Below, one piece after another: positions 6,996-44,128 of a DNA stretch of 64,000 nt. The translations under genes and the position numbers were made by a program. Position 1 is the first letter of the stretch, and each line of letters starts with the position of its first letter. The stretch comes from Paraburkholderia phytofirmans OLGA172 (GTDB taxonomy: Bacteria > Pseudomonadota > Gammaproteobacteria > Burkholderiales > Burkholderiaceae): the NCBI RefSeq assembly GCF_001634365.1, contig NZ_CP014579.1, positions 744,001 to 808,000 of the forward strand, read 5' to 3'. The notes under the pieces were generated by a model. That model worked only from the letters and a program-made list of their open reading frames with translations, was not told the origin of the DNA and searched no databases.

Positions 6996-7969
6996 CGTGA
7001 GGTATTGAGTTTGGACATCCCGTTGATCACAGCGATACCGACCACGACTGAGATCGACGCGAACGTCAGCAGCTTCTGCCCGGCGGGCCGGTCGAACAGC
7101 ACCATGACGTAAGCGCGATTCAGGCCGTACAGGCCAAGCATGATGACAACCGGAATGGCGGCTAGAATCCGGGTCGTGATCCGCGCTTCCGCGGTCAGCG
7201 CCTTCGTTTTCATGCGGATCTCGCCGCGTGTGCGGACAATGGCGGCCAGGTTTTCGAGCGTTTCCCCGAGTTGGCCGCCCGTCTCACGCTGCAAAAGCAG
7301 ACACACGCAAAAGAACGAGAAGTCAGTGACTTCGATTCGACGCATGGCCACCGCTAGCACTTCTTCCAGGTCGATCCCAAGCTGCAGCGCGTCGCCCATC
7401 AACCGGAATTCGTGACGAAGCGGCTCGGGACATTCGTTGGCAGCCGCACCGATGACGTGGGTGACAGGCACGCCCGCGCGCACCGCTCGCACGATCATGT
7501 CTATCAGGTCCGCGAAGCCATCCAGGAAGCGTCGCCGGAAGCGGGCGACAAGAAAACGATAGGCTTGCACCGCGGCAACGAGGGAAAGTGCGGGCGGCAT
7601 CAACAGTTTGACGACGCCGGGAAGCGGCATGAAACGCGTCATTGCCAGCGCGAGGAGCGCACCAGCGATCGCGGCGCCGATCACGATACGAAGGCCGCTC
7701 GCACCGGCGACCGTCCTGACGCGGGTGATTTTTGGCGCGAGCCAGCGGCTGACGGCATTGCCGCGCCGGTTCACCTTGAAGAGGGACGCGTCAAAGCGGC
7801 CTGCAGCCGGGGCGAGCCCCCCGTCCTGAACCAGAAAAGATCGAAGCATGCGCGCCCTGATCCGCGCGTCGGGCCGGTTGTTTCGCATCTCCTGAACGGT
7901 AAGCACAAGCAGGCCGAGCAACAGCGCGCAAGCGAACGAGGAGAGGGTGACGAGGTCGATCGACGTCAT
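6992..7969 (-). CDS. tadB: TadB, GspF-family inner-membrane platform protein
   Basis: From the chosen start MTSIDLVTLSSFAC the product is 325 residues. An upstream in-frame start exists, but its extension is Arg-rich and antisense-like, and the chosen ATG overlaps the tadA stop as ATGA. It has an N-terminal helix, then a T2SSF domain (FADLIDMIVRAVRAGVPVTH, LQRETGGQLGETLENLAAIV) and two further hydrophobic segments at the C-terminus. It pairs with TadC as the membrane platform of the Flp pilus. Confidence 0.92.
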   Translation of the reverse strand: MTSIDLVTLSSFACALLLGLLVLTVQEMRNNRPDARIRARMLRSFLVQDGGLAPAAGRFDASLFKVNRRGNAVSRWLAPKITRVRTVAGASGLRIVIGAAIAGALLALAMTRFMPLPGVVKLLMPPALSLVAAVQAYRFLVARFRRRFLDGFADLIDMIVRAVRAGVPVTHVIGAAANECPEPLRHEFRLMGDALQLGIDLEEVLAVAMRRIEVTDFSFFCVCLLLQRETGGQLGETLENLAAIVRTRGEIRMKTKALTAEARITTRILAAIPVVIMLGLYGLNRAYVMVLFDRPAGQKLLTFASISVVVGIAVINGMSKLNTSR

Positions 7970-12452: not shown

Positions 12453-13403
12453 TCAGTGCAGTGCGGGGAGAGACGGCAGTGGCGGTACGTTGTTTCCTGC
12501 GGTACCGCTTGACTGTGCGACGCTGGACGGCGCGTCGCTCCTGTCGGAACCTCTGTATATCGTCACGGTGGGCGGTAAGGCCGATCCGGAACGGGTGGCA
12601 ATGAGCTGAGGGCCTCGTGCTCGCGGCAGATCGCGCACGGCGCGTGAAATGTCTCCGGCCCAAACGGGCGGCGGCAGTGAGTCGGCCGGCACGGACGCGG
12701 CAGGATCCCGGGAAACGGTCGCGAAGCTGCGCAAGGCGAGCGACAGGCTGCCGAGGCGCGCGGCGACGGCAACGACTTCGCCCATCCGTGGCGTGACCTC
12801 AAGCGTCACAGTGCGGGCGCGGTTGGTGACATCCGGGGTATCGCCGCTCTTTGGACGCTGTATTTCCGAGCCGACCGCGAGCACCCGAACATGCTCGACG
12901 ACGGTTTCGCTCGATACGGCGAGGTCTGGCGAATCAGTCCGGCGGTCCATCTGCTGCGTCAGCAACAGGTCCACGTAGTCGCCGGGCTGGATCAGTCCGG
13001 CATTACCCGATACATCGTCGACGGCGACCGACACTGCTCGCATCTCAGGTTTGAGCGTGGCGGCAAGAAAGCCGGGGGCGCTTGGCAGGATGACGTCGTC
13101 AGCGACAACCAGGGTCCCGTTCGTTATCGGGCGACGCAAAAGCGCCCCCTTGAGTTCAACCGCGCCGGGTGCCCCGTAGACAACGGCATTGGGGGGAATG
13201 TCGGTGACGGGCAACGGCTTCCAGGTAAGATCCTCGTCCCGTAGAAGCAGGCCCTGCGGAAGATCGGCGGCACTGACACGGACCTTTTCGGTGCTGGGCA
13301 CGGGCGTCGGCGCATGCGCCACGCTTGCGACCACGACCCGAACGATCAGGGCGATCAGGGTGGCGCAGGCAATAAGCAAACCCACTTTGATGATGTTGGA
13401 CAT
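12453..13403 (-). CDS. rcpC: RcpC/CpaB pilus assembly protein (SAF domain)
   Basis: A 316-residue protein with one N-terminal membrane helix (residues 5-28), then a SAF domain: VRVSAADLPQGLLLRDEDLT, GALLRRPITNGTLVVADDVI, and the RcpC/CpaB continuation VSVAVDDVSGNAGLIQPGDY. CpaB/RcpC is a periplasmic component that may contact peptidoglycan and the secretin. An AGGACGG ribosome site precedes ATG 13403. It lies between tadV and the secretin gene in normal tad order. The Pro/Ser-rich tail after residue 280 has no recognised domain. Confidence 0.9.
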   Translation of the reverse strand: MSNIIKVGLLIACATLIALIVRVVVASVAHAPTPVPSTEKVRVSAADLPQGLLLRDEDLTWKPLPVTDIPPNAVVYGAPGAVELKGALLRRPITNGTLVVADDVILPSAPGFLAATLKPEMRAVSVAVDDVSGNAGLIQPGDYVDLLLTQQMDRRTDSPDLAVSSETVVEHVRVLAVGSEIQRPKSGDTPDVTNRARTVTLEVTPRMGEVVAVAARLGSLSLALRSFATVSRDPAASVPADSLPPPVWAGDISRAVRDLPRARGPQLIATRSGSALPPTVTIYRGSDRSDAPSSVAQSSGTAGNNVPPLPSLPALH

Positions 13404-26223: not shown

Positions 26224-26753
26224 GGCCGCCTGCCGTTGATAGAAGGGGAGAAGGCGAGCCGCCCCACGCAAAGGGACTGGCGCTATTTTAAATTTTAGCG
26301 CCTTATGCCCGGAATCGTTTGTCGCATCAATGACATTCACCGCGTTATCCGCCACTGCGGTTATTCGCGATCGGTCGTTTCAGCGTTCTGCGAATCAGCC
26401 GATGCGCTGTACTACACCGACGGCAAAGGCAACGTGGCGATGCCGCCGGTAACGAGATCAAAAAACCGCATCCATCGCCGCCGCAGGGCCAGGTCAAAAG
26501 CAGGACTCAACCTCGCCGGCCCAGCTCGACGCGATCCGGAATACTCTTTCATCACCCGCGCTCCCGCCCGGCTTGAGCGTACCGCTGTCATTCATCGGCA
26601 AGGCTCTCCTGAGAGAGGCCTGCTGCCACGTGTGCGGCTTACAGATTCAACATTAATCGGTACCGTGATTGCCTCCGGACGTGGGGCGTAGCCGCTTTGC
26701 ATGGCACAATTGTCCCGGGCTGCCGCTTCTCGCTAAACTTACGACCCGTTGTC
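26224..26753. other. 530-bp region without a supported gene
   Basis: Upstream of the lipoprotein gene (minus) and of the ligase/glycosyltransferase gene (plus), so it must hold both promoters. A 128-codon plus-strand frame exists at 26305-26691, but its translation is Arg-rich and without family likeness. AT-rich patches lie near 26285-26310 and 26820. Confidence 0.4.
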
Positions 26754-29162
26754 ATGCGTACCAACCAACTATCAGGCCGTGTCGCCACCGTAGCTGTCGT
26801 GTTGTCGCCAGCTCTAATGCTGTCAATTAGAGGGGGCACTGGCTATTGCTTTTTCGTTATTTTCGCGCTTGCTCTAGCCTATCTTGGCCAAGCCGAGCAT
26901 CGGCGTCGCGCGGCGGCGCTGTTTCGCGAGCACCGGCTTTTCGTCCTGGGTCTGATCGGCATGCCGGCCGTCGTGCTGTTCCAGATAGCAGTTTTGCGAA
27001 GCGGCACGTTCCCAGCGCTCGATCCATTCCTGCGGCTGGCTCTCGTCGTCCCGAGTTTTTTCTATCTGGGGTCGCTGGCGTTCCGGCAACTCCGCCTTGT
27101 GCAATGGGGATTTGTGGCGGGCGCGCTGGGCGCCGGCACCTGGGCCATTTACGCGCACTTTCATCCAGCCGTCTGGGTCTTTCCCGATCGCCTCGGCAAT
27201 TCGTTTACCAACCCGATCCCTTTCGGCGACACGGCATTGCTGCTCGGCTTCCTGTCGATTGTGTCGATTACGCGAGGCAGGCGTGCGCACGCAGCTGAGG
27301 TGGCGATCAAGATTGCGGCGTTTCTGCTCGGCGGATACGCATCATATTTATCGGGCTCGCGCGGCGGCTGGATTGCGGTGCCGTTGCTCGTATGGGCATC
27401 CGTCGGCGGCCGGCACTGGCTAGCCGGCAGGTGGGCACGCATTGCATTGGGCTGCGCGATCGTGGCGTTTTCCGTGGCACTCGCGTCGACCAGCATTGTC
27501 CGTCAGCGGGTCGACGCGATCGTGTCCGACGTCAAGGGGATACAGCAAGGCGACATCGATACTTCAGTTGGCCTGCGCCTTGAATTGTGGCGCGCGTCCG
27601 CGCTCCTGTACTCGCGGCATCCGGCGTTTGGCGTGGGGCGCGGCCGTCTGGAGGAAGCGCTGAACGCGCTCGCCCAGCGTGCCGAGGCGCCGCGAGCGAT
27701 CGTCAACGCGGGCGCACATAGCGACTTCTTCTCGACGCTTTCCCAAATGGGAACTGTCGGTGTGGCCGCACTGCTGCTTCTGTACGTCGGGACCTTCACG
27801 CCGTTCTGGCGGAACCGGCTTAGTGCGGACGGCGAAATCGCTACCGCATCGTATCTGGGACTCGCCCTGGTTGGCAGTATGATCATCTTCGGATTGACGA
27901 TCGACGCGTTGACGCTCGTGATGAGCGCAGCCTTTTTCGCGCTGAGTGTCGCAACACTGGCTGCGTGGATCGAGGCGCGAAAGCGCGAAATCGGCGAAGC
28001 GGACAACTCAAGTCCGCTGAAGCTGAAACGGCCTCCGCGAACGATTCTCGTGGCCTGCCCGCGTCGCATAGGCGATGTGTTGCTGGTGACGCCGCTTATC
28101 CGGTCGATGAAGACGCAATGGCCCGAGGCCGAGATCGATATGATCGTGTTTCGCGGCACGGAGGGGGTACTTGAGCACAATCCGGACCTGCGCCGAGTCA
28201 TTACTTGCGCCCGGCGCGCCCCGCTGCGTGAGCGAATTGCCGACGCTGCGCGGATCTGGCGGCGTTACGATCTCGCCTGCGCAGCCATCGACTCCGATCG
28301 CGCACTCTTTTATACGTGGTTTGCCGGCCGCAAGCGGATCGGGCTCGTCAATGCCGATCGTGTGACGTGGTTCGCCCGCGCCATGCTTCACCGTATCGCG
28401 CTCGACCGGCAACTGCAGGCACACGTGGTGTCGAGCACCCTCGAACTCGCGCCGCTGGTGGGCGTGACGCCGCGCGGGGAGGTGGTCGCACCGGGCATCC
28501 GTCTCGATCCCGAGCGCAGAGCCCGGTTCGAGGCGCGCTTCAATGCGCCTCCCGGCGCGATGCCGGGGCAGCCAATGGTCGTGCTGCACGTGTGCCCCAT
28601 GTACAGGTATAAACAATGGACCGTCGACGACTGGGCCGCAACGATCCGCTGGCTGCGTGCGCAGGGCTTTGCCGTCGCGCTGAGCGGAGGACCGGCGCAG
28701 GCCGAGCGCGAATATGCCGGGCAGGTGGTCGCGGCGGCTGGCGAGCTGGTCCTGAACCTTGTCGGTGAGCTGACGTTCGGCGAAACGGCGGAAATGATCC
28801 GGCGTGCGAATCTCTTCATTGGCCCCGATACGGGGACCACACATGTTGCTGCCGCATGCGGCACGTTGACGATCGCGCTGTTCGGCCCGACGGACCCAGT
28901 TCGGTGGGGGCCGTGGCCATGCAACTGGCCGGTGGGTGAACAACCATGGGCTCGACGCGGCTCAGGCCTGCGCGGCAACGTATACCTGTTGCAGGGGGAG
29001 GGCGAGTGCGTTCCGTGCCGGCAGGAAGGGTGCGGCGGCCATACGGAAAGCACAAGCGATTGCCTGACCGGCCTGCGGGCAAGCCGCGTGGTTGCTGTCG
29101 CTGCGCAACTGCTTGGTATACCCGCGCCGACACAGATTCAGATCGTCGACATCAGCCGATAG
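26754..29162 (+). CDS. fused O-antigen ligase / heptosyltransferase (GT9) protein
   Basis: One uninterrupted 802-residue frame with two domains that are normally separate. Residues 1 to about 410: a polytopic Wzy/WaaL-type ligase with about ten helices and a large periplasmic loop (LELWRASALLYSRHPAFGVG, INAGAHSDFF-like His region read as VNAGAHSDFFSTLSQMG). Residues about 435-790: a glycosyltransferase family 9 domain with CPRRIGDVLLVTPLIRSMKT, FIGPDTGTTHVAAACGTLTI, ALFGPTDPVRWGPW and a CVPCRQEGC cluster. Likely role: making or ligating LPS or a surface glycan. The start is uncertain (an ATG at 26697 is also in frame; neither has a strong ribosome site). No LPS genes adjoin. Confidence 0.88.
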   Translation: MRTNQLSGRVATVAVVLSPALMLSIRGGTGYCFFVIFALALAYLGQAEHRRRAAALFREHRLFVLGLIGMPAVVLFQIAVLRSGTFPALDPFLRLALVVPSFFYLGSLAFRQLRLVQWGFVAGALGAGTWAIYAHFHPAVWVFPDRLGNSFTNPIPFGDTALLLGFLSIVSITRGRRAHAAEVAIKIAAFLLGGYASYLSGSRGGWIAVPLLVWASVGGRHWLAGRWARIALGCAIVAFSVALASTSIVRQRVDAIVSDVKGIQQGDIDTSVGLRLELWRASALLYSRHPAFGVGRGRLEEALNALAQRAEAPRAIVNAGAHSDFFSTLSQMGTVGVAALLLLYVGTFTPFWRNRLSADGEIATASYLGLALVGSMIIFGLTIDALTLVMSAAFFALSVATLAAWIEARKREIGEADNSSPLKLKRPPRTILVACPRRIGDVLLVTPLIRSMKTQWPEAEIDMIVFRGTEGVLEHNPDLRRVITCARRAPLRERIADAARIWRRYDLACAAIDSDRALFYTWFAGRKRIGLVNADRVTWFARAMLHRIALDRQLQAHVVSSTLELAPLVGVTPRGEVVAPGIRLDPERRARFEARFNAPPGAMPGQPMVVLHVCPMYRYKQWTVDDWAATIRWLRAQGFAVALSGGPAQAEREYAGQVVAAAGELVLNLVGELTFGETAEMIRRANLFIGPDTGTTHVAAACGTLTIALFGPTDPVRWGPWPCNWPVGEQPWARRGSGLRGNVYLLQGEGECVPCRQEGCGGHTESTSDCLTGLRASRVVAVAAQLLGIPAPTQIQIVDISR

Positions 29163-29368
29163 ATACGCCACGTGGGCGTCGGCGTTCGGCAGGTCACACC
29201 TTGCGCAATGAACGCCGCCAGTTAGGCAGTCCGCGCTTGCACGTCGCCAGGGCAAACACGATCATGTACATACCGTGCCCTGGCTCTTCGGTACAACAGT
29301 TTCGGCGAACGTCACGCAATGCAGGGGCGCTGCGGTCGCGCGAAAATCGTTGCGTCCTGGTAACTCGT

Positions 29369-30088: not shown

Positions 30089-32743
30089 TCATTCCGAGAG
30101 TTCGCGCCGCAGCTGCGAGATATCGAGCGGCTTGCCGAGCAGCCGTGCGCCTGGGATGGTGTCGCCGATCTCGGCGCTCTCGCCGTAGCCCGACACCAGT
30201 AACACGCGGATGTCCGGCTGCTGACCTAGCACCGCGCGCGCCAGGTTGTCGCCGGACATGCCGGGCAAGATCAGGTCCGTAAACAGGACGTCGAAACGTT
30301 GCGCGGGCACGAGCCGCAGCGCTTCTTCGGCGCTCGCGACCGCGGTGCAGTCGAGCCCCAGCGTGCCGAGCAGGTCGCTGAGTGCGTCGCGCGAATCGGC
30401 GTCGTCTTCGACCAGCAGCACGCGAGCCGGCGTGCCGGGTTGGCGTGACAGCGGACTGGCCAGGGAATCCGCCAGCGCACTTGCCGGGGCGTTGGCGAGC
30501 AACGTTTCACCCGAAGAGGACGGCTCAGTCAGGCCTTCGCGCGGACCGGAAGCTTCGGATGCGCTGGCCGGATCGTAGACCGAGCGCGGCACGCAAGCGG
30601 CGATCTGCCCATCGTTCACGCTGGCGATTCCAGCGCGCAATACGCTGCGCACCTTGCGCGCGAGATCGTCGCGCCGGTATGGCTTGGAGAGCAGTGTGAT
30701 GCCGGCATCGAGCTTGCCGTGATGGACGATCTCGTCGCGCGTATAGCCGGAGGTGAAGAGGGTCGGCACGGTGGGCGAGCGCGCCGCCGCACGCTGCGCC
30801 AGTTCCACGCTTTTCACCTGGCCGGGCATCACGACATCGGTAAACAGCAGATCAATTGGCACGTCGCTATCGATGAATTCGAGCGCCGCGTCGCCGCTGG
30901 ATGCGGTCAGCACTTTATAGCCGAGTTGCGCGAGCATTTCGACGGCGGTCAGGCGCACATCCGCATCGTCTTCGACCACCAGAATTGTTTCGCCGCCGCC
31001 CACCGGCGCCGCGGTCTGATCGACGGTTTCGGCTGTTTCCGGCTCGCAGCAACGCGGGAAAAACAGCGAGACGGTGGTGCCGCGTCCCACTTCGCTGTCG
31101 ATCACCGTATGGCCGCCGCTCTGCTTGACGAAGCCGAACACCATGCTCAAGCCCAGACCGGTGCCATGGCCGTCGGGCTTGGTCGTGAAGAACGGTTCAA
31201 ACACGTGCTCCAGGATTTCGGGCTTCATGCCGGTGCCCGTGTCGGTCACCGAGAACACCACGTACTCGCCGGGCGAGAGCTCCGGCTTGCCACGGCAAAA
31301 CGCGTGGTCCAGCACGCGGTTCGCCGCGCGGACAGTGAGCGTGCCATCCGCTTGCATTGCGTCGCGCGCATTGATCGCGAGATTGAGCAGTGCGTTTTCG
31401 AGTTGATTGCGATCGGCCTGCACATGCCAAAGGTCGTTGCTCAACACCGTTTCGATCTTGACGGTCTCGCCGAGCGCGCGGTGCAGCATCTCGCTCATGC
31501 CGGCGAGCAGGCGGCGCGGGTTCAACACGGTAGGCGAGAGAGGCTGGCGGCGCGCGAAGGCGAGCAGATGCGCGGCCAGTTTCGCGCCGCGTTTGACGGC
31601 ATCGGTCGCGGCGGACAAGCGCCGCAGCGTGGCCGGACTGCCATTGGCATCGGCGGCGAGCATCTGCAGATTGCCGTTGATCACTTGCAGCACATTGTTG
31701 AAGTCGTGCGCGACGCCGCCTGTGAGGCTGCCGATCGCTTCCATCTTCTGGGCCTGGCGCAACTGCTCTTCGGCTAGCGCCCGTGCCGCGACCTCGTCGG
31801 CGACGCGTTGTTCGAGCGTTTCGGTCAGTTGGCGTAGCGATTGTTCGGCGATCTTGCGTTCGTGGATGTCGATCAGCACGCCGGGAAAGCGGGTCGGCTC
31901 CCCATGGTCGTCGAACTCGCACTGGCCGTTCGCCTGCACCCACATATAGTCGCCATCGGGGCGGCGAATCCGGTACTCGGCGCGAAACGGCTGGCCGGTG
32001 CGCATCGCTTCGACCGTCAAGCGGTCGTTGAGCGGCTGGTCGTCCGGATGGATCACTTGCGCCGTGGCATTGCGTTCGAGTCCTTTCGCGGCCTCTTCCA
32101 GCGGAAAGGAAAAGGTGCGCGCGAAACGTTCGTCACCGGTGACGATGCCGGTGCGCACGTCGAGCACCCATGTGCCGAGCACGGCGCCGGTATTGAGCGC
32201 GAGTTGCAGCCGTTCGTTGGTCTCGCGCAGTTCTGCCTCGGCATGTTGCCGCCAGCGTTCTGTCAGTACGCGCGTGGTGGTTTCGACGACCATCGCGAGT
32301 ACGCCCGCGGGTGCGCCGCTGTCGTCGGCGACCGGGCTGTAGTAGAGGTCCATCCAGACGTCTTCAGGCTTGCCGTCGCGCAGCAGAACCAGTTCCTTGT
32401 CGCGATACGACAGGGTGCCCCCGGCAAGACATGTCGTCATCACGTGACGGTTGAAATCGGCGACCTCCGGCCAGCCGTGTTCGACCGGGCAGCCGAGCAG
32501 ATACGGATGCCGTCCGCCCGCGAATATCGCGTAGGCGTCGTTGTAGATCATGTAGCCCGGTTTGCCCCATAGCAGCACGAGGGGCACAGGCGAGGCGAGC
32601 AGCATTTGAACGGTGGCGGTCAGACTGCGCTGCCAGTTTTCTATCGCGCCGAGGCTGGTCGCGGTCCAGTCGAATTCGCTGATGCGCCGGGCCATTTCCC
32701 CGTTCCAGCCGGGGCAGCCGTGGTCTTGTGCCGGAAATGGCAT
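30089..32743 (-). CDS. cytosolic PAS-PAS hybrid sensor histidine kinase with two receivers
   Basis: An 884-residue protein with no membrane helix. Order: an N-terminal PAS-like domain (YMIYNDAYAIFAGGRHPYLL), a PAS_3-type domain ending in a PAC segment (RAEYRIRRPDGDYMWVQANG), a coiled coil, the H-box IGSLTGGVAHDFNNVLQVIN near residue 345, an ATPase domain (NLAINARDAMQADGTL, GTGLGLSMVFGFVKQSGGH), receiver 1 (IDLLFTDVVMPG, Lys in LLSKPY), a Ser/Ala linker and receiver 2 (FDVLFTDLILPGMSGDNLAR). Both receivers keep the phospho-acceptor Asp. The HDFNN H-box is typical of this PAS-hybrid group. Output partner unknown. Confidence 0.93.
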   Translation of the reverse strand: MPFPAQDHGCPGWNGEMARRISEFDWTATSLGAIENWQRSLTATVQMLLASPVPLVLLWGKPGYMIYNDAYAIFAGGRHPYLLGCPVEHGWPEVADFNRHVMTTCLAGGTLSYRDKELVLLRDGKPEDVWMDLYYSPVADDSGAPAGVLAMVVETTTRVLTERWRQHAEAELRETNERLQLALNTGAVLGTWVLDVRTGIVTGDERFARTFSFPLEEAAKGLERNATAQVIHPDDQPLNDRLTVEAMRTGQPFRAEYRIRRPDGDYMWVQANGQCEFDDHGEPTRFPGVLIDIHERKIAEQSLRQLTETLEQRVADEVAARALAEEQLRQAQKMEAIGSLTGGVAHDFNNVLQVINGNLQMLAADANGSPATLRRLSAATDAVKRGAKLAAHLLAFARRQPLSPTVLNPRRLLAGMSEMLHRALGETVKIETVLSNDLWHVQADRNQLENALLNLAINARDAMQADGTLTVRAANRVLDHAFCRGKPELSPGEYVVFSVTDTGTGMKPEILEHVFEPFFTTKPDGHGTGLGLSMVFGFVKQSGGHTVIDSEVGRGTTVSLFFPRCCEPETAETVDQTAAPVGGGETILVVEDDADVRLTAVEMLAQLGYKVLTASSGDAALEFIDSDVPIDLLFTDVVMPGQVKSVELAQRAAARSPTVPTLFTSGYTRDEIVHHGKLDAGITLLSKPYRRDDLARKVRSVLRAGIASVNDGQIAACVPRSVYDPASASEASGPREGLTEPSSSGETLLANAPASALADSLASPLSRQPGTPARVLLVEDDADSRDALSDLLGTLGLDCTAVASAEEALRLVPAQRFDVLFTDLILPGMSGDNLARAVLGQQPDIRVLLVSGYGESAEIGDTIPGARLLGKPLDISQLRRELSE

Positions 32744-33262: not shown

Positions 33263-36200
33263 TTAATTCGACAATGACAAATAAGGCGAACTGAGCGGTG
33301 TAGGCGGGAACGGCTGCAAGCCCGTCTGCTTGCTAAAGCTATACCGCACATAAACAGCTGCAAGCCACTCGCGATATTCATAAGCATTGCCGAGCGATGC
33401 AGTCGCCCCAAACGCCAACTGCGGTGCCAGTTGATACTCTCCCACTGCGCCAAGCGAATAGGAAACCCCGGTCTTGCTCTGCCCAGGATAAACCGCACCA
33501 CTATCCACACCCGTGCCGATGAGTTTGGCTTCCCCCGCCGCGTCGCTCTGGCGGTTGGAGCCATCATTGAGCGGGAAGTAGTTCGACGCGTCCTGACGAT
33601 AATGCTGCACGCCGATCGATCCCTTCACGTCGTAGGTAAACGCACCACTGCGCCCGGTCCATTCCACCGGCAAATTCAGGATCACATATTGCTGCGGGCT
33701 GAAATACCCGCCTTGACCATACGTGAAGTAAGACAGATTGTTGTTATAGCGCATCATCGTCGTGTTCACACCGATGGTCAGCGTCTGATCGGCATCTTTC
33801 AACAGGCGCGTGTAGACACCGCCGCCGCCCTTGACGGCGTCATTGCTCGCAACGTGATTGCCCTGGTAGTACTGGTACGCGGCATTCACATACAGACCGC
33901 TGGTGCCGTCATCCCATGCAAGGCTGCCAAGGCCGCCGTTGGAGGTGACGCCACCCCATTCAAGCCCTGAGCCCGAGTCACGCGCGCCAGCGTAGGACAG
34001 CAAACTGTCGGTCACCGCCCGGCGCGCAACAGCCAGCGAATAAGAAACCTTGTCGGTAATGCCGCCGCTGTATTGCAGGCCGGCCACGATGGTCTTCTCG
34101 GGGAAACCGAGCGGCGTCACACCGATATCGCCGCTAAAACCACGGCCCTCGTAGCCGAGCGACAACCCCACGCCGCTGGCAGTCTGGCTGCCGTAGATGT
34201 TGTTGCCAGCAACCGCCGCCGTCGCCGACGTGCTATTGGACAGCCCCGCGCCGAATCGCGCGAGCGTCGATACATTGCCCGAGGCGGTGCCCGCATCCAG
34301 CGTAACCGGGGTCGCCGTCACGACGATATGGCCGTTGCCGGCCTTGATACGCCCCTGAATGGGCGCTTCGATATCCGTCAGCGTCGACAGACCGTCTTCT
34401 CCCGAGCGGTTGCGGAACACAATCCCGCCCGACACGGTGCTCGACTGCTCGCGATTGACCTGCGCCAGTTCTTCGGCGACACCGAGCGTTTGCGTGTTGG
34501 CTACGTTCGGTTGCGCGTAGTTGCCGCCGTTGCCGTTCGCGCCGGGTTGTTGGGGGTAATACGCCTGCGCATAACCGGTCGGCGGCTGCGGGATGTACGG
34601 CTGCTGTTGCTGCGCGTAATAACCCGAGCCCTGGCTCGGATACGGCTGATAGGGCTGCTGACCATAGGCCTGCTGCGGCGGATACGGTTGGTAAGGCTGC
34701 TGCGCGTAACCTTGTTGTTGCTGCGGATAAGGCTGCTGGCCGTAATAGGGCTGTTGTTGCTGCTGCGGGTAGCCTTGTTGCTGCTGCGAATAGCCTTGCT
34801 GCTGCCCATGCGGCGCCTGCGCATAAGCTTGCGCGTTGCGGTTGCTGTTTGACGTGCCGGGCTTCTTGCTTGCCGAGTGTTTCGTGCTCGTGGCCGAACC
34901 CGTGTAACGCGGTTGTTGCGTCGAACCGGCATTAGCCTGCGCTTCACGTGCCGCAGGCGACATCGGCCACGGCGTGGTTGCATAGCCGTCGGGCACCTGC
35001 TGCTGGTATTGCACCTGTTGCGGATATCCACCTTGTTGCGGGTAGCCTGCCTGTTGAGGATAGCCGGCCTGCTGCGGATAACCGGATGGCTGCGGGTAAC
35101 CGGCCTGTTGCGCGTAACCCGCCTGCTGCGGATACGCCGGGTTGTACTGCTGCTGCGGGTCCGGCTGCATTGGTGGCATCTGCGTTTGCATCTGCGCCTG
35201 GCCTTGACCCGGATACGGCTGCAACGGCGCGCCCGACTGGCTCGATCCGTTGCTCTCCTGGCCGTAGCCGCCCGTGTTGGCGCCGGGACGCGGCGCGTTA
35301 TAAGGAACGGCGGTAGGCGCGGCGTTCGGCGCGGCATTGGGCAAATACGGCTGCGCAGGGGCCGTATAAGGCGCGACATAAGGCGCGGGCTGCGAGGGCG
35401 GCGGATAGTTCGGCACGGTCTGTGACGGCAAGGAGGACTGCGAGTACGGAAGCGATGCACGCGCGGCATTGAGGCCGCCGCCGGCAAACGCGGCGTTGTC
35501 GGCGTCGGTCGGCGAGATCGTTGCGGTTTTACCTTCGAAGGGATTGGTGCCGGGCAGCGGCGTCGCGCCGATCCTGCGCATCGCGGCTTCCCAGCCGCGC
35601 GGCACGTTGCTCGATGCATCGGCGCGCGGCGCGTTGGCCATCAGCGGCGTATTGGCCGCAACCAGCGAGCGTTGCAGATAAGTCGACGCGAGCGACAGCT
35701 TGCCTTCGGCGCGATACATGCGGCCGACCGTCGCCAGCACGCCCGGATCGCCAGGCGCCGCAGCGAGCGCCTGATCGGCGAGCGATTCGGCGTAGCTGAA
35801 CTGTTTCGCACCGACCGCCGCAGGGATGGTCGCCTGCAGCAGGTTCAGGTCGTCGGGCTTGCGCTGCAGCGCGACGCGGTAACTGGCGAGTGCGTTACGG
35901 TCGTCGCCGGCGCTCGAATAGAGGCGGCCGAGGGCGGCTTGCAGATCGGGATTGTCGGGCATCGCCGCCAGCCACGGCGCGATCACGTCATAGGCGCTGG
36001 CAAGGTCGCCGCGCTGACGCACCGCGTCGCATTGCTTGATGACGATCCCCAGATTCAGATTGCCGAAATCCGTGCGCTGCTGCGGCGTCAATGGCATCGA
36101 CGCGAGCCGCCGCATCACCATGCCGAGTTCGGCTTCCTGCTGCGTGGCGGACAGAATGCCCGCGTATTGCAGCAGCAAATCGGTGTTGCCGGGCGCCGCG

Positions 36201-38149
36201 TTCATCGCGCTGCGCACGAGGCTCAACGCGCGATTCGGGTCGCCGGCCTGCTGATACGCGGCGGCGATTACGCCGATCAGTTCGGGGCTGTTGCCGGCAA
36301 CCGGTTCGGCCGCGTACAGCGTCGCCAGCGCTTGTTGCGACTGGCCGTTGCGCGCCATCCGCGTCGCGAGGTCGGCCTGCTGATGCACCCACAAACGGTG
36401 CTGCAAGGTCGTCATCGCGTCGGTGCGTTGCGCGGGCGGAATCCGGTCGAGTTGCGCGAGACCGGCTGCCCAGTCCTGCGTTTCCGCCGACAGCAACGCG
36501 CTCGCATACAACGCGTCGGTCATGTCGGGATGCGCGGCGAGCAGCCCGTCCATCATGCTGCGCGCATTCGCAACGGCGCCTTGGCGCACGTAAATGCGCG
36601 CGAGGTCCAGACGCAGCCAGGGATCGTCGGGGTCGTTCAGCAGCGCGTCTTCGAACAGGCTGCGCGCGCTGCCGAGATCGCCGCGCGCTTCGGCCGCGCG
36701 TGCCTGCGCGGCCTGCGCTTCGCCACGCAGACGGTTGATGCCGCCGGCCTTGGACTGTTGTTCGCCGTTCAGCTGATTGGCGAATTGCAGCGCTTCGTCG
36801 CCGCGGCCTTGCGCGGCGAGCGCGCCGACGAGGCCGCGAATCGCATCGGGATTGTCGGCCTGGCGGCGCAATGCCATCCGGTAGGCCTGCTCCGCGCCGA
36901 CCGGGTCGCCGTTCGCCAGCAGCATTTCGCCGAGCAGCACCTGCGCGGTGACATCGGACGGATTTAGCGCGATCGCGCGTTCGAACAGCGACTTCGCCTT
37001 CGCGACCTCGCCATTGCTGCGCGCGCCGATCGCGTCGCTGGTATAGGTCCAGTAGGTCGCGCTATCGAGCGCGGTTTTCCAGCGCGCCGGATTGCCGCTG
37101 CGCGACGCGCGTTCCAGATAGTTGCGGGCTTCGGCAAAGCGTTCCTGCTTCAACGCGGCGATACCCATGCCGCCGAGCGCGTCGGTGTCGTTCGGACTGC
37201 TCGCGAGGACTGACGAAAACTTCGCGCGTGCCGTGCCGAGGTCGCCACGATCGAGCGCGGCGAAACCGTCGGCGATGGTGCGGCCGCGGGCGTCGACGGC
37301 GGCATTTTCCTGGGCGCGGTCGCGGGCCGCCTTGTCCTGCTGAACCATCGATTCGAAGCGCGCCTTGACCGCGGCGTCGTCGGGTGCACCTTGCAGATAG
37401 GCTTCGTACAGCGCGGCGTCGGAGGGCCGTGCGTCGAGCCATAACAACGCCTGGCGCCAGCTCTTCTTCGCCGACGCGCCGACCGTGCTGTCGCCGGCGA
37501 GCTTCTGCAGCCGCGCGATACCGTCGCGGCGCGTCACATCGCGATACGTCAGATGCTGTGCATAGGCGAGGGCGTAGCGCGGATCATCGGGGTTGTCGCG
37601 GGCAAGTTGTTCGAGGCCGCGGCGCGCCTGATCCCAGCCTTGGGGCGTGGCGGAGAGCGCCTGGTAATACTCGAGCTGCAGTTCGGGCGTGGCCGGTTTG
37701 CCATTCAACGCGCGCTGATACTGCTCCACCGCGCTCGCGCTCTGACCGCTTTGCGCAAGCCGCCGCGCGTCGTTGACAGTCTGGTCGCGCAGGCTCGATT
37801 CGCCGAGACGCCGGCCCAGTTCGTCCAGATTCGGATAGTTCGGCGCGACCGCTTTCAGACGCGCCAGATACTGCTGCGCGCCCGCGCCGTCCTTGCGGTC
37901 GGCGAGCACCATGCCCATGCCGTAGAGCGCATCGGGTTGATTCGGGTCGATGCGCAGCACTTTCTGCCACGCCTGTTCGGCGAGGTCGCCGCGGTGATGC
38001 GATTGCCAGTACTTGCCCTGATCGATCAGCACGCTCAGCGGATCTTTCGATGCCTGCGCCAATGCGTCGGGCGAGGCCGTCGCCACGCAGCAGACAGCCG
38101 TGAGGCTCAGCGCGAACCGCAATGAAAACGCGAGGGCGCTCAGTCGCAT
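33263..38149 (-). CDS. bcsC: BcsC, cellulose export outer-membrane protein with TPR superhelix
   Basis: From ATG 38149 (MRLSALAFSLRFALSLTAVC signal peptide) the product is 1,628 residues; E. coli BcsC has about 1,160. Residues 30 to about 880 are tandem TPR repeats forming the periplasmic superhelix that guides the glucan. Residues about 900-1215 are a Q/P/Y/G-rich linker with many GYPQQ-type units. The rest is the BCSC outer-membrane barrel (QVNREQSSTVSGGIVFRNRS, GLSLGYEGRGFSGDIGVTPL). The ATG lies inside the bcsZ 3' end. It is the last gene of the operon. The extra length is almost entirely the linker. Confidence 0.95.
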   Translation of the reverse strand: MRLSALAFSLRFALSLTAVCCVATASPDALAQASKDPLSVLIDQGKYWQSHHRGDLAEQAWQKVLRIDPNQPDALYGMGMVLADRKDGAGAQQYLARLKAVAPNYPNLDELGRRLGESSLRDQTVNDARRLAQSGQSASAVEQYQRALNGKPATPELQLEYYQALSATPQGWDQARRGLEQLARDNPDDPRYALAYAQHLTYRDVTRRDGIARLQKLAGDSTVGASAKKSWRQALLWLDARPSDAALYEAYLQGAPDDAAVKARFESMVQQDKAARDRAQENAAVDARGRTIADGFAALDRGDLGTARAKFSSVLASSPNDTDALGGMGIAALKQERFAEARNYLERASRSGNPARWKTALDSATYWTYTSDAIGARSNGEVAKAKSLFERAIALNPSDVTAQVLLGEMLLANGDPVGAEQAYRMALRRQADNPDAIRGLVGALAAQGRGDEALQFANQLNGEQQSKAGGINRLRGEAQAAQARAAEARGDLGSARSLFEDALLNDPDDPWLRLDLARIYVRQGAVANARSMMDGLLAAHPDMTDALYASALLSAETQDWAAGLAQLDRIPPAQRTDAMTTLQHRLWVHQQADLATRMARNGQSQQALATLYAAEPVAGNSPELIGVIAAAYQQAGDPNRALSLVRSAMNAAPGNTDLLLQYAGILSATQQEAELGMVMRRLASMPLTPQQRTDFGNLNLGIVIKQCDAVRQRGDLASAYDVIAPWLAAMPDNPDLQAALGRLYSSAGDDRNALASYRVALQRKPDDLNLLQATIPAAVGAKQFSYAESLADQALAAAPGDPGVLATVGRMYRAEGKLSLASTYLQRSLVAANTPLMANAPRADASSNVPRGWEAAMRRIGATPLPGTNPFEGKTATISPTDADNAAFAGGGLNAARASLPYSQSSLPSQTVPNYPPPSQPAPYVAPYTAPAQPYLPNAAPNAAPTAVPYNAPRPGANTGGYGQESNGSSQSGAPLQPYPGQGQAQMQTQMPPMQPDPQQQYNPAYPQQAGYAQQAGYPQPSGYPQQAGYPQQAGYPQQGGYPQQVQYQQQVPDGYATTPWPMSPAAREAQANAGSTQQPRYTGSATSTKHSASKKPGTSNSNRNAQAYAQAPHGQQQGYSQQQQGYPQQQQQPYYGQQPYPQQQQGYAQQPYQPYPPQQAYGQQPYQPYPSQGSGYYAQQQQPYIPQPPTGYAQAYYPQQPGANGNGGNYAQPNVANTQTLGVAEELAQVNREQSSTVSGGIVFRNRSGEDGLSTLTDIEAPIQGRIKAGNGHIVVTATPVTLDAGTASGNVSTLARFGAGLSNSTSATAAVAGNNIYGSQTASGVGLSLGYEGRGFSGDIGVTPLGFPEKTIVAGLQYSGGITDKVSYSLAVARRAVTDSLLSYAGARDSGSGLEWGGVTSNGGLGSLAWDDGTSGLYVNAAYQYYQGNHVASNDAVKGGGGVYTRLLKDADQTLTIGVNTTMMRYNNNLSYFTYGQGGYFSPQQYVILNLPVEWTGRSGAFTYDVKGSIGVQHYRQDASNYFPLNDGSNRQSDAAGEAKLIGTGVDSGAVYPGQSKTGVSYSLGAVGEYQLAPQLAFGATASLGNAYEYREWLAAVYVRYSFSKQTGLQPFPPTPLSSPYLSLSN

Positions 38150-39348
38150 GCATTTCTCCAACTGGGCACCAGACGGCCGGCTTCGTCGAAACGATAGCGG
38201 CCGTCGATAAAACCGGTGCCGAACAAGCCCAGCACACGATCGTAGTAGACAGGGTCGCGGCCCGGCGCGCTGGTGTCGAGCACGGCGAGATGGGTCCGCG
38301 CGAGACCGAGGCCGCGCTCGTCGCCGAGCGCCTGGAAGTACGGCGCGAGCGCACCCCAGTAGCTCAACGGTCCTTCGCCGCTCGCCGAGCCGGTGGTCGA
38401 CGCAACCTTCTCGGGCGGGATGCCGGTTTGCGCAACCTTCGCGCGCATGCCGCCGAGCGCCGCGAGCCAGGGTTTGGCGAGCGGATCGGCGGGCGAGGCG
38501 AGGCCGGCCCACAGATAGACGCGGATCGCGTCGTAGCTGCCGGTGTCGCCTTCTTTCGGATCGACCACGAACTGGCCGTTCTGCCACGCGGCCCAGTCGG
38601 GCGCGAAGCCTTGCGGCGCTGTGGTCCTGATCAGCTTGTAGGCGCTGTCGGCGAGCCTGGCCCACGGGCCGTTCGGCATGTCCCTGGCCAGCGCGCGCAG
38701 CACCGGCAAGGGCAGATAGCTCGGATTCAGGCGCGTCACGCCGCCATTCCTGAAGCCTTGCGGTCCGGGCAGCAGCATCGGGCCGACGCCGGGCAGCGTG
38801 GTCATTTCCTGGCGAGCGATTTGTGCGGCGAGCGCCTGACCGAGTTGCGTATAACTTGCCTCATGCCAGAGGCGGCCGGCTTGCAGCAGATCGTAGGCGA
38901 TCCACAGATCGGAGTCGGATGCGGAATTCTGATCGAGCACGCCGAACGAGCCGTCCGGTTTCTTGCCCCACAGCCACGACGGCAGCCGCACGTTTTGCGC
39001 GTCGAACTGATTGCCCGCGAGATTGGTGCGGGTCCAGTTGAGCAAGCGGTCGAAGGTCGCGCGGTCGTTCGCGGCCAGCGCGAAGAACAGGCCGTACGAT
39101 TGGCCTTCCGAGGTGGTTTTCAGCTGTGCCGAGGAGTAATCGATCACGCGGCCATCGGCCTGCACGAAGTGTTCGACGAACGTGCGGTAGGCCGGCCAGT
39201 CGGAGTTGCATGGACCGGCCTGGCCGGGCGCCGGGGTGGTCTGCGCCACCTTGGCGATACTGGCCGAACTCGTGGTCGCTGCAAGCGCGAGGCCAACGCC
39301 AAGCCCCAAGGCGAGTGTCATAGAGATCTTGTTGATTCGAACCGGCAT
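38140..39348 (-). CDS. bcsZ: BcsZ, periplasmic endo-1,4-beta-glucanase (GH8)
   Basis: A 402-residue secreted family-8 glycosidase. Signal peptide up to about residue 31, then FVQADGRVIDYSSAQLKTTS, EGQSYGLFFALAANDRATFD with the catalytic acid Glu, PDGSFGVLDQNSASDSDLWI with the catalytic-site Asp, and YDAIRVYLWAGLA. BcsZ trims nascent glucan and is needed for normal cellulose secretion. It starts 10 bp after the bcsB stop and its end overlaps the bcsC start by 10 bp. Confidence 0.95.
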   Translation of the reverse strand: MPVRINKISMTLALGLGVGLALAATTSSASIAKVAQTTPAPGQAGPCNSDWPAYRTFVEHFVQADGRVIDYSSAQLKTTSEGQSYGLFFALAANDRATFDRLLNWTRTNLAGNQFDAQNVRLPSWLWGKKPDGSFGVLDQNSASDSDLWIAYDLLQAGRLWHEASYTQLGQALAAQIARQEMTTLPGVGPMLLPGPQGFRNGGVTRLNPSYLPLPVLRALARDMPNGPWARLADSAYKLIRTTAPQGFAPDWAAWQNGQFVVDPKEGDTGSYDAIRVYLWAGLASPADPLAKPWLAALGGMRAKVAQTGIPPEKVASTTGSASGEGPLSYWGALAPYFQALGDERGLGLARTHLAVLDTSAPGRDPVYYDRVLGLFGTGFIDGRYRFDEAGRLVPSWRNACD

Positions 39349-39358
39349 ATCAGTCCTA

Positions 39359-41920
39359 TCAGTCCCTCAGGCGGCGCGCGGCGATCGAACGCAGCGTCCG
39401 GTAGAACAGGCCCGCGATGATCAGCGCGGCGAGCACGCCGCCCAGCATCAGCAACAGCGGATGCGACGACAGCGCCCAGCGCAGATACTCCTGCGGCGAC
39501 AAATGGCCGACATAGTACGCTTCGCCGTTCGACGTGATGGTGACGGTGCGGCCGTGGATCACGGCCATCGCGCCTTGAATTCCCTGCAGCACGTCGGCGT
39601 CGAGCAGGGCGGCGGACAGATCGGCATCCGACTGGCCGGCCGCGCTCACCAGCGCGACGGCGCTGCGGTTCTTGTGCAGCGGCGATTCGAAACCGGTCAG
39701 GAGCGCATCGCCGTTCGAACTCACGAGCGTCAGATCGGCGCGCGCTGGCGAGCGTTCGACACCGCGCTCGCCATGCCACCAGTCCTCGAGCTTGAAGACC
39801 ACGTCCGAGAGCGCGAAAGTGCGCGAATCGCCGTCGCTGGAGAACGGCATCGATTTGGCCCAGCGCTGCAGCAGCGGTTGCTTGCCCGGCGCGCCGAAAA
39901 TCAGCAGGTCCTTGTCGGCGTACTTGTCGACGTCGTCGGCCGTGCCGACGGTGACGCCATTCACCGGGTAACCCGTCGATGCGCCCATGCGGCCCATGGT
40001 CATCAGGTACAGGCTGTAGTCGCTCGAATCGGCCTCGTCCGGCAGGATCACGGCGGTCTCGGAGAGGTCGGCCATCCGCGTGAAGGGGAAGCCGCTGTTG
40101 GCGAAGGCGGCCAGATCGGGCAGCGCCATGTAATGCGGGAACGACGACAGGTCGATGGTCGAGTTCGGATCGATTGCCCCGACTACGTTATCCAGCAGAC
40201 GGCCGTGGCATTCGCCGGTGTTCGGAATGTCGTAGAAGAAATGCAGACGCACTTGCGCGCGCGGCGTCAGCAGCAGCGGCGGAATATGGAGCGTGCGACT
40301 CGCTTCGGCGGTCCTGTCCGGCAACACGCGCGCGAAGTAATGGCTCAACTCGAACACCGAGGCCGACTCGGCTGGAATCGGCAAAGCCTGCACGAAGCCG
40401 TCATTGACGCTGACATTCAGCGACGAACGGTCCCGCAGCGGACGCACCGTATAGCGGTAGCGCAGATCGATCGGCGCGCCCTTGGTATGCCACATGAACA
40501 GATCGGGCGGGACGCGCAGATTCACGCGGACGGCGTCGGCGTCGTAGCCGGACACGGTCAGGTCGCGCGGATCGGCGAGTTCGCCGAAACGCACCGGACG
40601 GTTGGTGGGCAGCCAGTTCGGCGCGTCGTACGGCGCGCGCGGCGCGAGTTCGTTCAACTGGGTGATCGTCGCGCTCGGGCCGCTCAGCGTGTTCTGGCCG
40701 ATGCCGAGTGCCTTGGCGGCGGTTTTCAGTTCGGCTTCGGTGCGGCCGAGCACGAGCAGCAGCTTGCCGCGTGCCGGCGCTTCGCGATCCACCACGGCGA
40801 TCGTCGGGCCGGAGATCGCCGGAATCGTCACGCCGGCCGGGCGCTGGTCGTCGGTCGCGAACACCACCGCGTTGCCCGACAGCGGCGCGTGATCCAGTTG
40901 CGCCGGAAACACCGCGCCACGATAGCCGGCGAGCGCGCCGAACCATGACGCGACGATGCCGCCCGCTTCGAGCGTAGCGGCGCCGGGTTTTTGCGGGAAC
41001 ACGAACGGCAGCTCGAGACGGCGCACGTCGCGGCGGTCGAAGAACGGCTGCGGCAATGCCGCCAGGTCCGGCTTGCTGGCGAGCGACGCATAGGTCAGAT
41101 CGAGCGAACTGGCGTTGCTGACAGTGGCCCACAGCGACGAATTCGCCGGGTCTTCGCAGCTCGTCGTGTAATGGCCGATCAACTGCACGTTCAGGTGGTT
41201 GAATTCGGTGATGAAACGCGGATCGATCGAGACGTCGCGCGCCACCAGCATGCCGGCCTGTTCGTGCGGCACGGGCAGCGTCGCGGCGACTTCGCCGTTC
41301 ACCAGCACTTTCAGCTGGGAAATATTCGCGAGCAGCGCGGGCGAGTAGCTATAGACCAGATGCAGGACCGCGCCGGTCACCACTTCGTCGCCGCGCACGG
41401 AGAAGGCGACGCCGTTCTGGCCGTCGGTGCCGCGCAGTTGCAGCGGATCGTGCGCGCCCAGGTCGGCGAAGGTGAGCGTCTGGCGGCGGCCGCCCGGCAC
41501 CAGCGTGCCCGGTTCGGCGGTGGTGGGCGTTCTGATACCCAGAGCTTTCACCGACGACGCGGCGAGCGCCGGCGTGGGCGTGGCCAACTGCGCTTGCGCG
41601 AGCGTGTTCGGATCGTAAGGGATGGCCGCGCTCGGCGCGGGCACACTGCCCGCGCCAACGGCGACGCGCGCAGCCGGCGCGTCCTGGGTCACTGCCGCCT
41701 GGCCGGCTTGCGGCGCACTCGCGCCGCCGATGGCCGCCGCGGCCACTTCAGCCGCCGAAGCCAGCGGCGCCGCCAACGCGGTCTGCAACGCGAGCCAGCA
41801 GGCAAGCCCGCGCATCAACCGCTGCGAGCGGGGGCGTCCAGACAGACGTGCCTTCGGTTCCATCACACTGCGCTCGTGATTCGAGCGTTCGACGTTTGAC
41901 TTCGCCATCCTGTTGCCCAT
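39359..41920 (-). CDS. bcsB: BcsB, cellulose synthase periplasmic subunit
   Basis: An 853-residue protein (start at 41920, or an internal Met at 41908 or 41863). A signal/anchor lies near residues 35-58, then an Ala-rich linker, the two jellyroll/flavodoxin-like pairs (GVAFSVRGDEVVTGAVLHLV, YTTSCEDPANSSLWATVSNA, LDHAPLSGNAVVFATDDQRP) and a C-terminal membrane anchor LMLGGVLAALIIAGLFYRTL. BcsB passes the glucan from BcsA through the periplasm and its anchor is required for synthase activity. It begins 3 bp after the bcsA stop. Confidence 0.95.
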   Translation of the reverse strand: MGNRMAKSNVERSNHERSVMEPKARLSGRPRSQRLMRGLACWLALQTALAAPLASAAEVAAAAIGGASAPQAGQAAVTQDAPAARVAVGAGSVPAPSAAIPYDPNTLAQAQLATPTPALAASSVKALGIRTPTTAEPGTLVPGGRRQTLTFADLGAHDPLQLRGTDGQNGVAFSVRGDEVVTGAVLHLVYSYSPALLANISQLKVLVNGEVAATLPVPHEQAGMLVARDVSIDPRFITEFNHLNVQLIGHYTTSCEDPANSSLWATVSNASSLDLTYASLASKPDLAALPQPFFDRRDVRRLELPFVFPQKPGAATLEAGGIVASWFGALAGYRGAVFPAQLDHAPLSGNAVVFATDDQRPAGVTIPAISGPTIAVVDREAPARGKLLLVLGRTEAELKTAAKALGIGQNTLSGPSATITQLNELAPRAPYDAPNWLPTNRPVRFGELADPRDLTVSGYDADAVRVNLRVPPDLFMWHTKGAPIDLRYRYTVRPLRDRSSLNVSVNDGFVQALPIPAESASVFELSHYFARVLPDRTAEASRTLHIPPLLLTPRAQVRLHFFYDIPNTGECHGRLLDNVVGAIDPNSTIDLSSFPHYMALPDLAAFANSGFPFTRMADLSETAVILPDEADSSDYSLYLMTMGRMGASTGYPVNGVTVGTADDVDKYADKDLLIFGAPGKQPLLQRWAKSMPFSSDGDSRTFALSDVVFKLEDWWHGERGVERSPARADLTLVSSNGDALLTGFESPLHKNRSAVALVSAAGQSDADLSAALLDADVLQGIQGAMAVIHGRTVTITSNGEAYYVGHLSPQEYLRWALSSHPLLLMLGGVLAALIIAGLFYRTLRSIAARRLRD

Positions 41921-41923
41921 AGA

Positions 41924-44128
41924 TCAGTCTTTGGTTTTTAGCTTCTTGACGTCCACCGGACGGCTTTTCATCGCGCTTCGAAGGTCGGCATAAAGATGCT
42001 CGAAGAGCCCCGCAATGCCGCGTGCGCCGACCGTCAGCACATGCGACAGACCGCGCAACGGCGTGTCCTGCTGACGCCCTTCGGCCCAGCCGGTCCACGC
42101 GTCGGCGCGCGCGAAGGTGGTCTTGACGAACTCGTATTCCTGCTCGCGCGTCATCGCCGAGAAGCGCAGGCCCACGCGGCCCGGCTCCGTGAAACCGACG
42201 GTGGCGGGGAAGGCGTATTCCTCGTCGCCGCGAAACAGCGACACGCTCACGTGTTCGTGCAACGGCACTTCGATTTTCGCCGGCAGCGCCACGCCGACGC
42301 CGCCTTCCGAATAGTCGATGGTTTCGCAGGCAAGTGTGCGGCCGGTCGAGAACTTCAGCATCACGGGCATCTGCATCGCCACGCGGTGCACGGCGCGAAT
42401 CTGCCGGCGCTCGCTCGCCGCGGCCACGCTCGCGCCGAGTATCAGCATGTTGTAGATGGTCCAGCCGAGGTTCAGGATGGTCGTGTTCACCACGCTGCGG
42501 ATGTGCCAATTCAGATAGATATGCACGATGCCCACGACAAAGCCGATCAGGTTCAGCAACAGCAGGAACAGATACGGCCGCGAGATCGCCCAGTCGAAGT
42601 AGTTCTTCTCGATCTGGCCACCCTTGGCCGTCACGTTGAACTTGCCGAGCTTCGGATTGATCAGCGCGAGCAGCGTAGGCGCGGTGATGTACGACGCCAG
42701 CACCGATTCGTACACTTCGGCCCAGAACGAATGGCGGAACGAGCGCTGCATCCGCGAGTTGGTGATGCTCGCGTGCATCATGTGCGGCAGTGCGTAGATC
42801 GCGATCGTGCTGGCGGCGGCTTCGATCACGTGCGCGCCGAAGAACAGATACGACAGCGGTGCGGTGAGGAACACCAGACGCGGGATGCCGTAGAAGAAGT
42901 GCATCATCGCGTTCAGATAGCAGAGCCGCTGGCCGAGTTTCAGGCCCTTGCCGGTCAGTGGATTGTCGATCCGGAAAATCTGCGTCATGCCGCGTGCCCA
43001 GCGAATCCGCTGGCCGATGTGGCCGGAGAGACTTTCAGTGGCGAGACCCGCCGCCTGCGGGATCGCCAGATACGCGGTGGTGTAGCCGAGGCGGTGCAGC
43101 TTTAACGCGGTGTGCGCGTCTTCGGTAACGGTCTCTACTGCAATGCCGCCGATCTCTTCGACCATGGTCCGGCGCAGCAACGCGCAGGAGCCGCAGAAGA
43201 ACGTGGCGTTCCACAGATCGTTGCCGTCCTGCACGAGGCCGTAAAACAGTTCGCCTTCGTTCGGCACCTTGCGGAAGGTGCCGAGATTGCGTTCGAACGG
43301 GTCGGCGGAGAAGAAGTGGTGCGGCGTTTGCAGCATCGACAGCAGCTTGTCGCGCAGGAACCAGCCGAGGCCGATCTGCAGGAACGAGCGGGTCGGAATG
43401 TGATCGCAGTCGAAGATCGCGAGGTATTCACCCTGGGTGATCTTCAAGGCTTCATTGATGTTGCCGGCTTTCGCGTGGCGGTTGTGCGTGCGGATCGTCC
43501 AGTTGACGCCGACCTCCTCGCAGAACGCCTTGAACTCGGGACGGCGGCCGTCGTCGAGCACGTGGATCGAGATTTTCTCGGCCGGATAGTCGAGCGCGAG
43601 CGCGGCGAAGATGGTTGGCTTCACCACCGAGAGCGGCTCGTTGTAGGTCGGGATGAAGACGTCGACGGACGGCCACAGGTCGCGCGAAGCAGGCAGCGGC
43701 ATCGGCGTGCGCTTGAGCGGCCAGGCGGTCTGGAAGTAGCCGAGCAGCAGCACGAGGGTCGAATAGACTTCGGCCGAGACCAGCAGCAGGCCCCACGCGG
43801 CGTCGAGCGGATGTTCCCAGTACGTGGTCGAAGTGAGCCGCCAGTACATATAGCGGCCCGACGTGACCACCGAGAGCATGATCATCACCATCGTCGCGTA
43901 ACGGCCAGGCAGGCGGCGGAACCACAGGGCGGTGACGAAGCAGCAGGTTGCGAACGTCAGTTGCTCGTAGAACGCGAGCGGCACCGTGAACACGAAGTAC
44001 AGCATCATCAGCGCGAACAGCGTGACCAGACCCGTCACGATCCGGCTGTTCCAGAAGCGTGCGTCGACGAAGCGTTCGAGCCGCGATGGCTCGGCGCCTT
44101 CGAGGCCTGGCGATGAAGGCGTAGTCAT
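41924..44128 (-). CDS. bcsA: BcsA, c-di-GMP-activated cellulose synthase (GT2)
   Basis: A 734-residue catalytic subunit from ATG 44128, which overlaps the bcsQ stop as ATGA. About eight membrane helices flank a family-2 glycosyltransferase domain: VFIPTYNEPLSVVKPTIFAA, DDG near residue 190, FDCDHIPTRSFLQ near 240, TEDAH near 336 and QRIRWARGM near 374. The C-terminal PilZ domain has the RRQIR and DYSEGG(VG) motifs near 575 and 604 that bind c-di-GMP. It makes beta-1,4-glucan from UDP-glucose. All catalytic and allosteric motifs are intact. Confidence 0.97.
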   Translation of the reverse strand: MTTPSSPGLEGAEPSRLERFVDARFWNSRIVTGLVTLFALMMLYFVFTVPLAFYEQLTFATCCFVTALWFRRLPGRYATMVMIMLSVVTSGRYMYWRLTSTTYWEHPLDAAWGLLLVSAEVYSTLVLLLGYFQTAWPLKRTPMPLPASRDLWPSVDVFIPTYNEPLSVVKPTIFAALALDYPAEKISIHVLDDGRRPEFKAFCEEVGVNWTIRTHNRHAKAGNINEALKITQGEYLAIFDCDHIPTRSFLQIGLGWFLRDKLLSMLQTPHHFFSADPFERNLGTFRKVPNEGELFYGLVQDGNDLWNATFFCGSCALLRRTMVEEIGGIAVETVTEDAHTALKLHRLGYTTAYLAIPQAAGLATESLSGHIGQRIRWARGMTQIFRIDNPLTGKGLKLGQRLCYLNAMMHFFYGIPRLVFLTAPLSYLFFGAHVIEAAASTIAIYALPHMMHASITNSRMQRSFRHSFWAEVYESVLASYITAPTLLALINPKLGKFNVTAKGGQIEKNYFDWAISRPYLFLLLLNLIGFVVGIVHIYLNWHIRSVVNTTILNLGWTIYNMLILGASVAAASERRQIRAVHRVAMQMPVMLKFSTGRTLACETIDYSEGGVGVALPAKIEVPLHEHVSVSLFRGDEEYAFPATVGFTEPGRVGLRFSAMTREQEYEFVKTTFARADAWTGWAEGRQQDTPLRGLSHVLTVGARGIAGLFEHLYADLRSAMKSRPVDVKKLKTKD

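Follow-up and report, generated by a model that had tools for sequence, protein, structure and literature searches.

The window, by which we mean the whole 64,000-nucleotide stretch of Paraburkholderia phytofirmans OLGA172 DNA that was analysed, carries a single gene that joins a WaaL-type O-antigen ligase to a glycosyltransferase of family GT9. Translation of its frame gives 802 residues with no internal stop; in 20 mononucleotide shuffles of the window, the longest stop-free run was 368 codons. The features of the locus are as follows:

26754..29162, + strand: fused gene, WaaL-type ligase plus GT9, 802 aa (translation, Pfam, fold match)
26754..27992, + strand: ligase half, residues 1-413, with 12 predicted membrane helices
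27360..27362, + strand: R203, aligned with R191 of WaaL 7tpg, nearly invariant (90% or more) in alignment A3
27576..27578, + strand: R275, aligned with R265 of WaaL 7tpg, nearly invariant (90% or more) in alignment A3
27717..27719, + strand: H322, aligned with H313 of WaaL 7tpg, in the large predicted periplasmic loop, nearly invariant in A3
27993..28037, + strand: linker (residues 414-428); L055 has a separate WaaL, which ends at the matching point (...KREIGEA-stop)
28038..29123, + strand: GT9 half, residues 429-790
28074..28076, + strand: D441 in the GDV motif, the same in all 13 aligned fused proteins
29007..29063, + strand: four-cysteine block C752-x2-C755-x4-C760-x9-C770 (motif search)
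26588..29326, + strand: stretch common to the window and the closest relative, L053, at 95% DNA identity (DNA comparison)

An earlier note had read this locus as an uninterrupted 802-codon fusion with a junction near residue 420. Indeed, the frame holds no stop, it contains two Pfam domains and two complete folds, and fold matching puts the join at about residues 413-428, the same place as in the relatives. The reading would have fallen with a stop or frameshift, or with a fusion confined to one assembly; the uninterrupted architecture is present in six other genomes, which rules out an assembly or frameshift artefact. If translation began at the in-frame TTG at 26697, the protein would be 821 aa long; most of the 13 aligned fused proteins use a start equivalent to ATG 26754. 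The separate ligase of L055 stops just where the fused linker runs on, and linker length varies among fused proteins, with 13-16 additional residues in P0007 and P0008. Separate production of the GT9 half from an internal ATG is unlikely in P0001, where no methionine occurs between the linker and M452, which already lies past the GDV motif; a linker methionine is present in P0007, P0010, P0012 and P0013.

The membrane half matches Wzy_C at residues 188-340 with 67.1 bits, above the cut-off of 31.7. In the predicted model of the fused protein (mean pLDDT 85.8, pTM 0.65), both enzyme folds are complete by fold match, and 12 long membrane helices can be counted before residue 413. The half resembles WaaL 7tpg, which we take to come from Cupriavidus metallidurans, over the whole fold (22% identity over 394 residues) and in two arginines and a histidine, R203, R275 and H322, whose counterparts in 7tpg are presumably catalytic. 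Alignment A3, on which their conservation was scored, holds 74 sequences out of 146 proteins. Unlike the stand-alone 7tpg enzyme, the fused protein continues after its last helix into a GT9 enzyme. With the N-terminus inside, the predicted topology makes the 80-residue loop 245-324, which includes R275 and H322, periplasmic and the GT9 half cytosolic. The placing of the GT9 half in the cytosol that the earlier note had proposed is thus predicted, with the ligase active site on the periplasmic side. Loop charge agrees mildly, with 14 lysines and arginines in 65 cytosolic residues versus 14 in 119 periplasmic ones.

The C-terminal half matches Glyco_transf_9 (Pfam) at residues 505-721 with 109 bits against a cut-off of 22, and adopts a GT-B fold by fold match. 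Its best NCBIfam match is heptosyltransferase III (TIGR02201, WaaQ type), with which it shares this fold and the GDV and PDTG motifs. It differs in its membrane tether and its four-cysteine block, and its 144 bits lie under the curated cut-off of 170.2, so HepIII is a family-level guess and we file the half as GT9, HepIII-like. Three GT9 relatives from the core cluster discussed below score 151-157 against the same model, and L105, outside that cluster, passes with 175.8. Residues D441 and P691-D692-T693 are invariant in the 13 aligned fused proteins, and by analogy with WaaC we take D441 to be catalytic. Two HepI-like GT9 genes also occur in this genome, at L078:7018-7938 and L077:6727-7668, with 255 and 359 bits to TIGR02193.

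Among the sequence blocks first listed for this half, PDTG and FGPTDP are present; the cysteines are spaced C-x2-C-x4-C with a fourth cysteine beyond, rather than C-x2-C-x3-C. In a search that tolerated 6-12 residues ahead of the last cysteine, the block was found in 14/14 fused Paraburkholderia-type proteins, in all 120 of the matches listed for a second, Ramlibacter-type fusion, and in 28 of 30 separate GT9 rows, the exceptions being L069 and L073, both distant GT9s. The block is a possible metal site by analogy with TibC, described as an autotransporter heptosyltransferase with an iron finger (PMC4358343). Both are heptosyltransferase-type proteins with a four-cysteine motif, but the TibC spacing is unlike ours (Cys339-342-358-370), and TibC is a dodecamer that acts on protein.

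The protein search returned 26 relatives. A full-length fusion was found in 7 of 144 genomes of the same genus and in 1 of 299 sampled across the family, this genome itself (the surveys scored the best candidates per genome, seven and three, respectively). The other six carriers are P. ultramafica, P. podalyriae, P. oxyphila, P. panacisoli, P. elongata and P. translucens. The architecture is retained down to 57% identity among the 13 aligned fused proteins, and dN/dS against six fused relatives is 0.21-0.32 for the ligase half and 0.24-0.36 for the GT9 half. Both halves are under purifying selection; together with the conserved residues, this rules out degenerate halves. Titles and abstract openings in the open-licence literature yielded no report of a ligase-heptosyltransferase fusion. 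The JGI names of some relatives already read "heptosyltransferase/O-antigen ligase."

The gene seems to travel without its neighbours. In flank comparisons of at most 10 kb (less in L050 and L053), the only resemblance between its surroundings in the window and in the six named relatives was a cellulose-synthase-like stretch in L053, 34% identical. In L053 (P. elongata), the fused gene is bracketed by a 161-bp repeat whose inverted ends measure 20 bp, present in two direct copies at 9427-9585 and 12687-12847, which hints at a way in which the gene moves. A related copy (73%) lies beside the fused gene of L050 at about 7300-7490. In the window, the repeats found around the gene amount to one direct pair of 19 nt and three inverted pairs, and no pair brackets it as in L053. 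A clean empty site was not found, the flanking genes lying at different places in relatives among the matches listed. The segment 22800-33200 appears mosaic-like, its blocks matching different places in relatives, again among the matches listed.

Ten nearby genes were scanned and none is an LPS gene, as had been noted at the outset. The fused gene adjoins a gene for a hybrid sensor kinase (30089-32743) that has a PAS domain and two receiver domains. About 4 kb downstream, at 33263-44038 (-), there is a cellulose synthase operon with GH8, BcsB, a BcsA-like gene with PilZ and, at 33263-38665, a frame that looks BcsC-like to us. The fusion sits on contig C2 and the dnaE-msbA core-LPS cluster on C1. 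Such surroundings could suggest that the fusion ligates a glycan other than LPS, for example, an exopolysaccharide or one carried by a different lipid, and the earlier note had drawn a similar conclusion. However, the neighbours say little about role, because this genome's own core cluster lacks a ligase and the neighbourhood is different in each of the six relatives.

The trees exclude P0002, P0004 and matches with fewer than 220 aligned residues. In the ligase tree (47 rows), all 17 fused rows form one clade (100/99), and in the GT9 tree (57 rows) all 18 fused rows of the Paraburkholderia type do so (96/98). The separate GT9s that share a fork (99/99) with the fused clade lie between dnaE and msbA in all eight loci read (L055-L057, L060, L061, L063, L074 and L106). 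The nearest separate ligases do so in two of three cases (L055 and L056, not L058); that fork stands at 86/93, forks there are weakly resolved and most of the other nearest rows have no known place. The next two ligases, L059 and L073, also lie outside the interval. The order in L055 is dnaE (DNA polymerase III alpha)-GT4-GT9-WaaL (Wzy_C)-GT4-type-GT9-GT2-ABC transporter; the name MsbA for this transporter, like the name WaaC used here, is our own assignment. Another GT9 gene located between dnaE and msbA is that at L072:7226-8347, which the tree places close to the Ramlibacter-type GT9 halves. A report on B. cenocepacia (PMC5462993) mentions a wabO-dnaE cluster with core-oligosaccharide genes. 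The company kept by the nearest separate enzymes, GT9s in 8/8 loci and ligases in 2/3, weakens the idea of a separate glycan; with the position of L058 and the absence of LPS neighbours still in its favour, we consider it highly improbable.

In L056, from Trinickia dinghuensis (ligase P0023), the ligase and a GT9 gene are adjacent on the same strand. A fusion of neighbouring genes can be explained without coupling: the stop and spacer of such a pair may simply have been lost, with no gain from joining. The variable linker and the completeness of both halves fit this account, which concerns coupling and is compatible with an LPS role. Against it stand the retention of the Paraburkholderia-type fusion down to 57% identity and a same-order fusion in Ramlibacter and Caenimonas, and we regard it as possible but on the doubtful side.

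The second fusion was apparent from the P0027 query, which returned 155 proteins; both domains were present in 120/120 of the matches listed, for which the sources given are Ramlibacter, Caenimonas and one unnamed Pseudomonadota bacterium. These proteins resemble ours in domain order, similar length, short linker and cysteine block. Yet in the six compared, identity to our GT9 half is 36-39% and the ligase half can barely be aligned with ours, at a best E of 3e-4; the GT9 halves also stand apart from the Paraburkholderia type in the GT9 tree. There, the nine Ramlibacter-type rows are placed elsewhere, which forces two state changes. Of the 120 Ramlibacter-type proteins listed, 9 entered the GT9 tree and none the ligase tree. 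In the GT9 tree, 12 rows, among them L120 and L072, are flagged as long branches that meet, and three rows as having an unusual composition. The two changes could be one gain and one loss; two gains are favoured because the ligase halves are barely alignable, and a second origin of the ligase-GT9 fusion is the simplest reading of the sequences. A search of one family's 74 genomes gave no genomic place for the Ramlibacter-type fusion, and P0027 matched over both halves in 1 of 300 genomes sampled across the order, the one that holds the window. That the fusion couples two steps is what we infer, and the Ramlibacter-type fusion makes it more likely.

In this genome, only the fusion and a PglL-type protein (Wzy_C_2 and PglL_A domains) score over the Wzy_C cut-off. 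The dnaE-msbA cluster comprises a GT2, MsbA, a GT4, a WaaC-like gene and another GT2, and no ligase was found in it. A Wzy_C gene lies near msbA in 15 of 17 other genomes (6/6 with the fusion and 9/11 without it; the two lacking one are G164 and G322, both fusion-free), and the normal ligase is retained in six of the seven fusion genomes. This genome encodes a Wzt_C-containing ABC exporter adjacent to genes of the rhamnose pathway, which points to an O-antigen that has to be ligated. Two weak Wzy_C proteins (26.6 and 20.5 bits) both lie among Wza/Wzc-type genes, the second about 28 kb from the Wzt gene; neither gave a sequence match to any solved structure. They are more likely polymerases, though they could be divergent ligases. 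Three further matches reach 11-12 bits. The fused protein is probably the O-antigen ligase of this genome, and in the six other genomes it would be a second ligase beside the resident one.

The co-occurrence with a resident ligase in 6/7 genomes allows a bolder reading, in which the fusion is a portable core-conversion module. The GT9 half would add a heptose that serves as a new acceptor, and the fused ligase would use this acceptor. A single acquired gene would in this way compete with the resident ligase and redirect O-antigen, or a different lipid-linked glycan, to a new site on the core. A solitary gene whose neighbours differ between fusion genomes, its presence in 7/144 genomes, the repeats in L053 and the joining of two barely alignable ligases to the same GT9 class all fit. 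However, acceptor specificity is unreadable from sequence, and this genome lacks a resident ligase to compete against; we think this reading rather unlikely. In its fullest form, a portable single-gene LPS conversion enzyme would work on both membrane faces: in the cytosol it would put in place the heptose that serves as its acceptor, and after the flip it would ligate the glycan to this heptose in the periplasm, perhaps with channelling of the core between the halves. Such an enzyme would have been invented at least twice from different ligase classes. We put this forward equally tentatively. It overlaps with our preferred explanation, as do the other rivals, and the weights we give to the readings do not sum to one.

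The best reading, which we favour with some reserve, is a two-enzyme LPS protein that spans the inner membrane. Catalysis by either half, the sugar, the acceptor and a benefit from coupling are what we infer in the following scheme. One inner-membrane protein would hold two LPS enzymes. Its cytosolic, C-terminal HepIII-like GT9 would transfer heptose from ADP-heptose to the growing lipid A-core, MsbA would flip the core to the periplasm, and the N-terminal membrane half would attach O-antigen to the flipped core; in this genome, a Wzm/Wzt-type ABC transporter would export the lipid-linked O-antigen. The protein may have originated when two genes of a Burkholderia/Trinickia-like core cluster fused, one for WaaL and one for a HepIII-type GT9, and the fusion would then have spread among Paraburkholderia genomes as a solitary gene.

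The enzyme families are already known; the novelty is that one chain combines them, that this probably came about more than once and that the combination spread as a lone gene. Building of the LPS core and ligation of O-antigen are regarded as two distinct steps, one on each face of the inner membrane. One chain with both enzymes, apparently evolved repeatedly, suggests that a ligase and a core transferase benefit from being joined. The fusion is also a natural construct for asking which core sugar the ligase uses, and in this genome it may explain the whereabouts of the O-antigen ligase.
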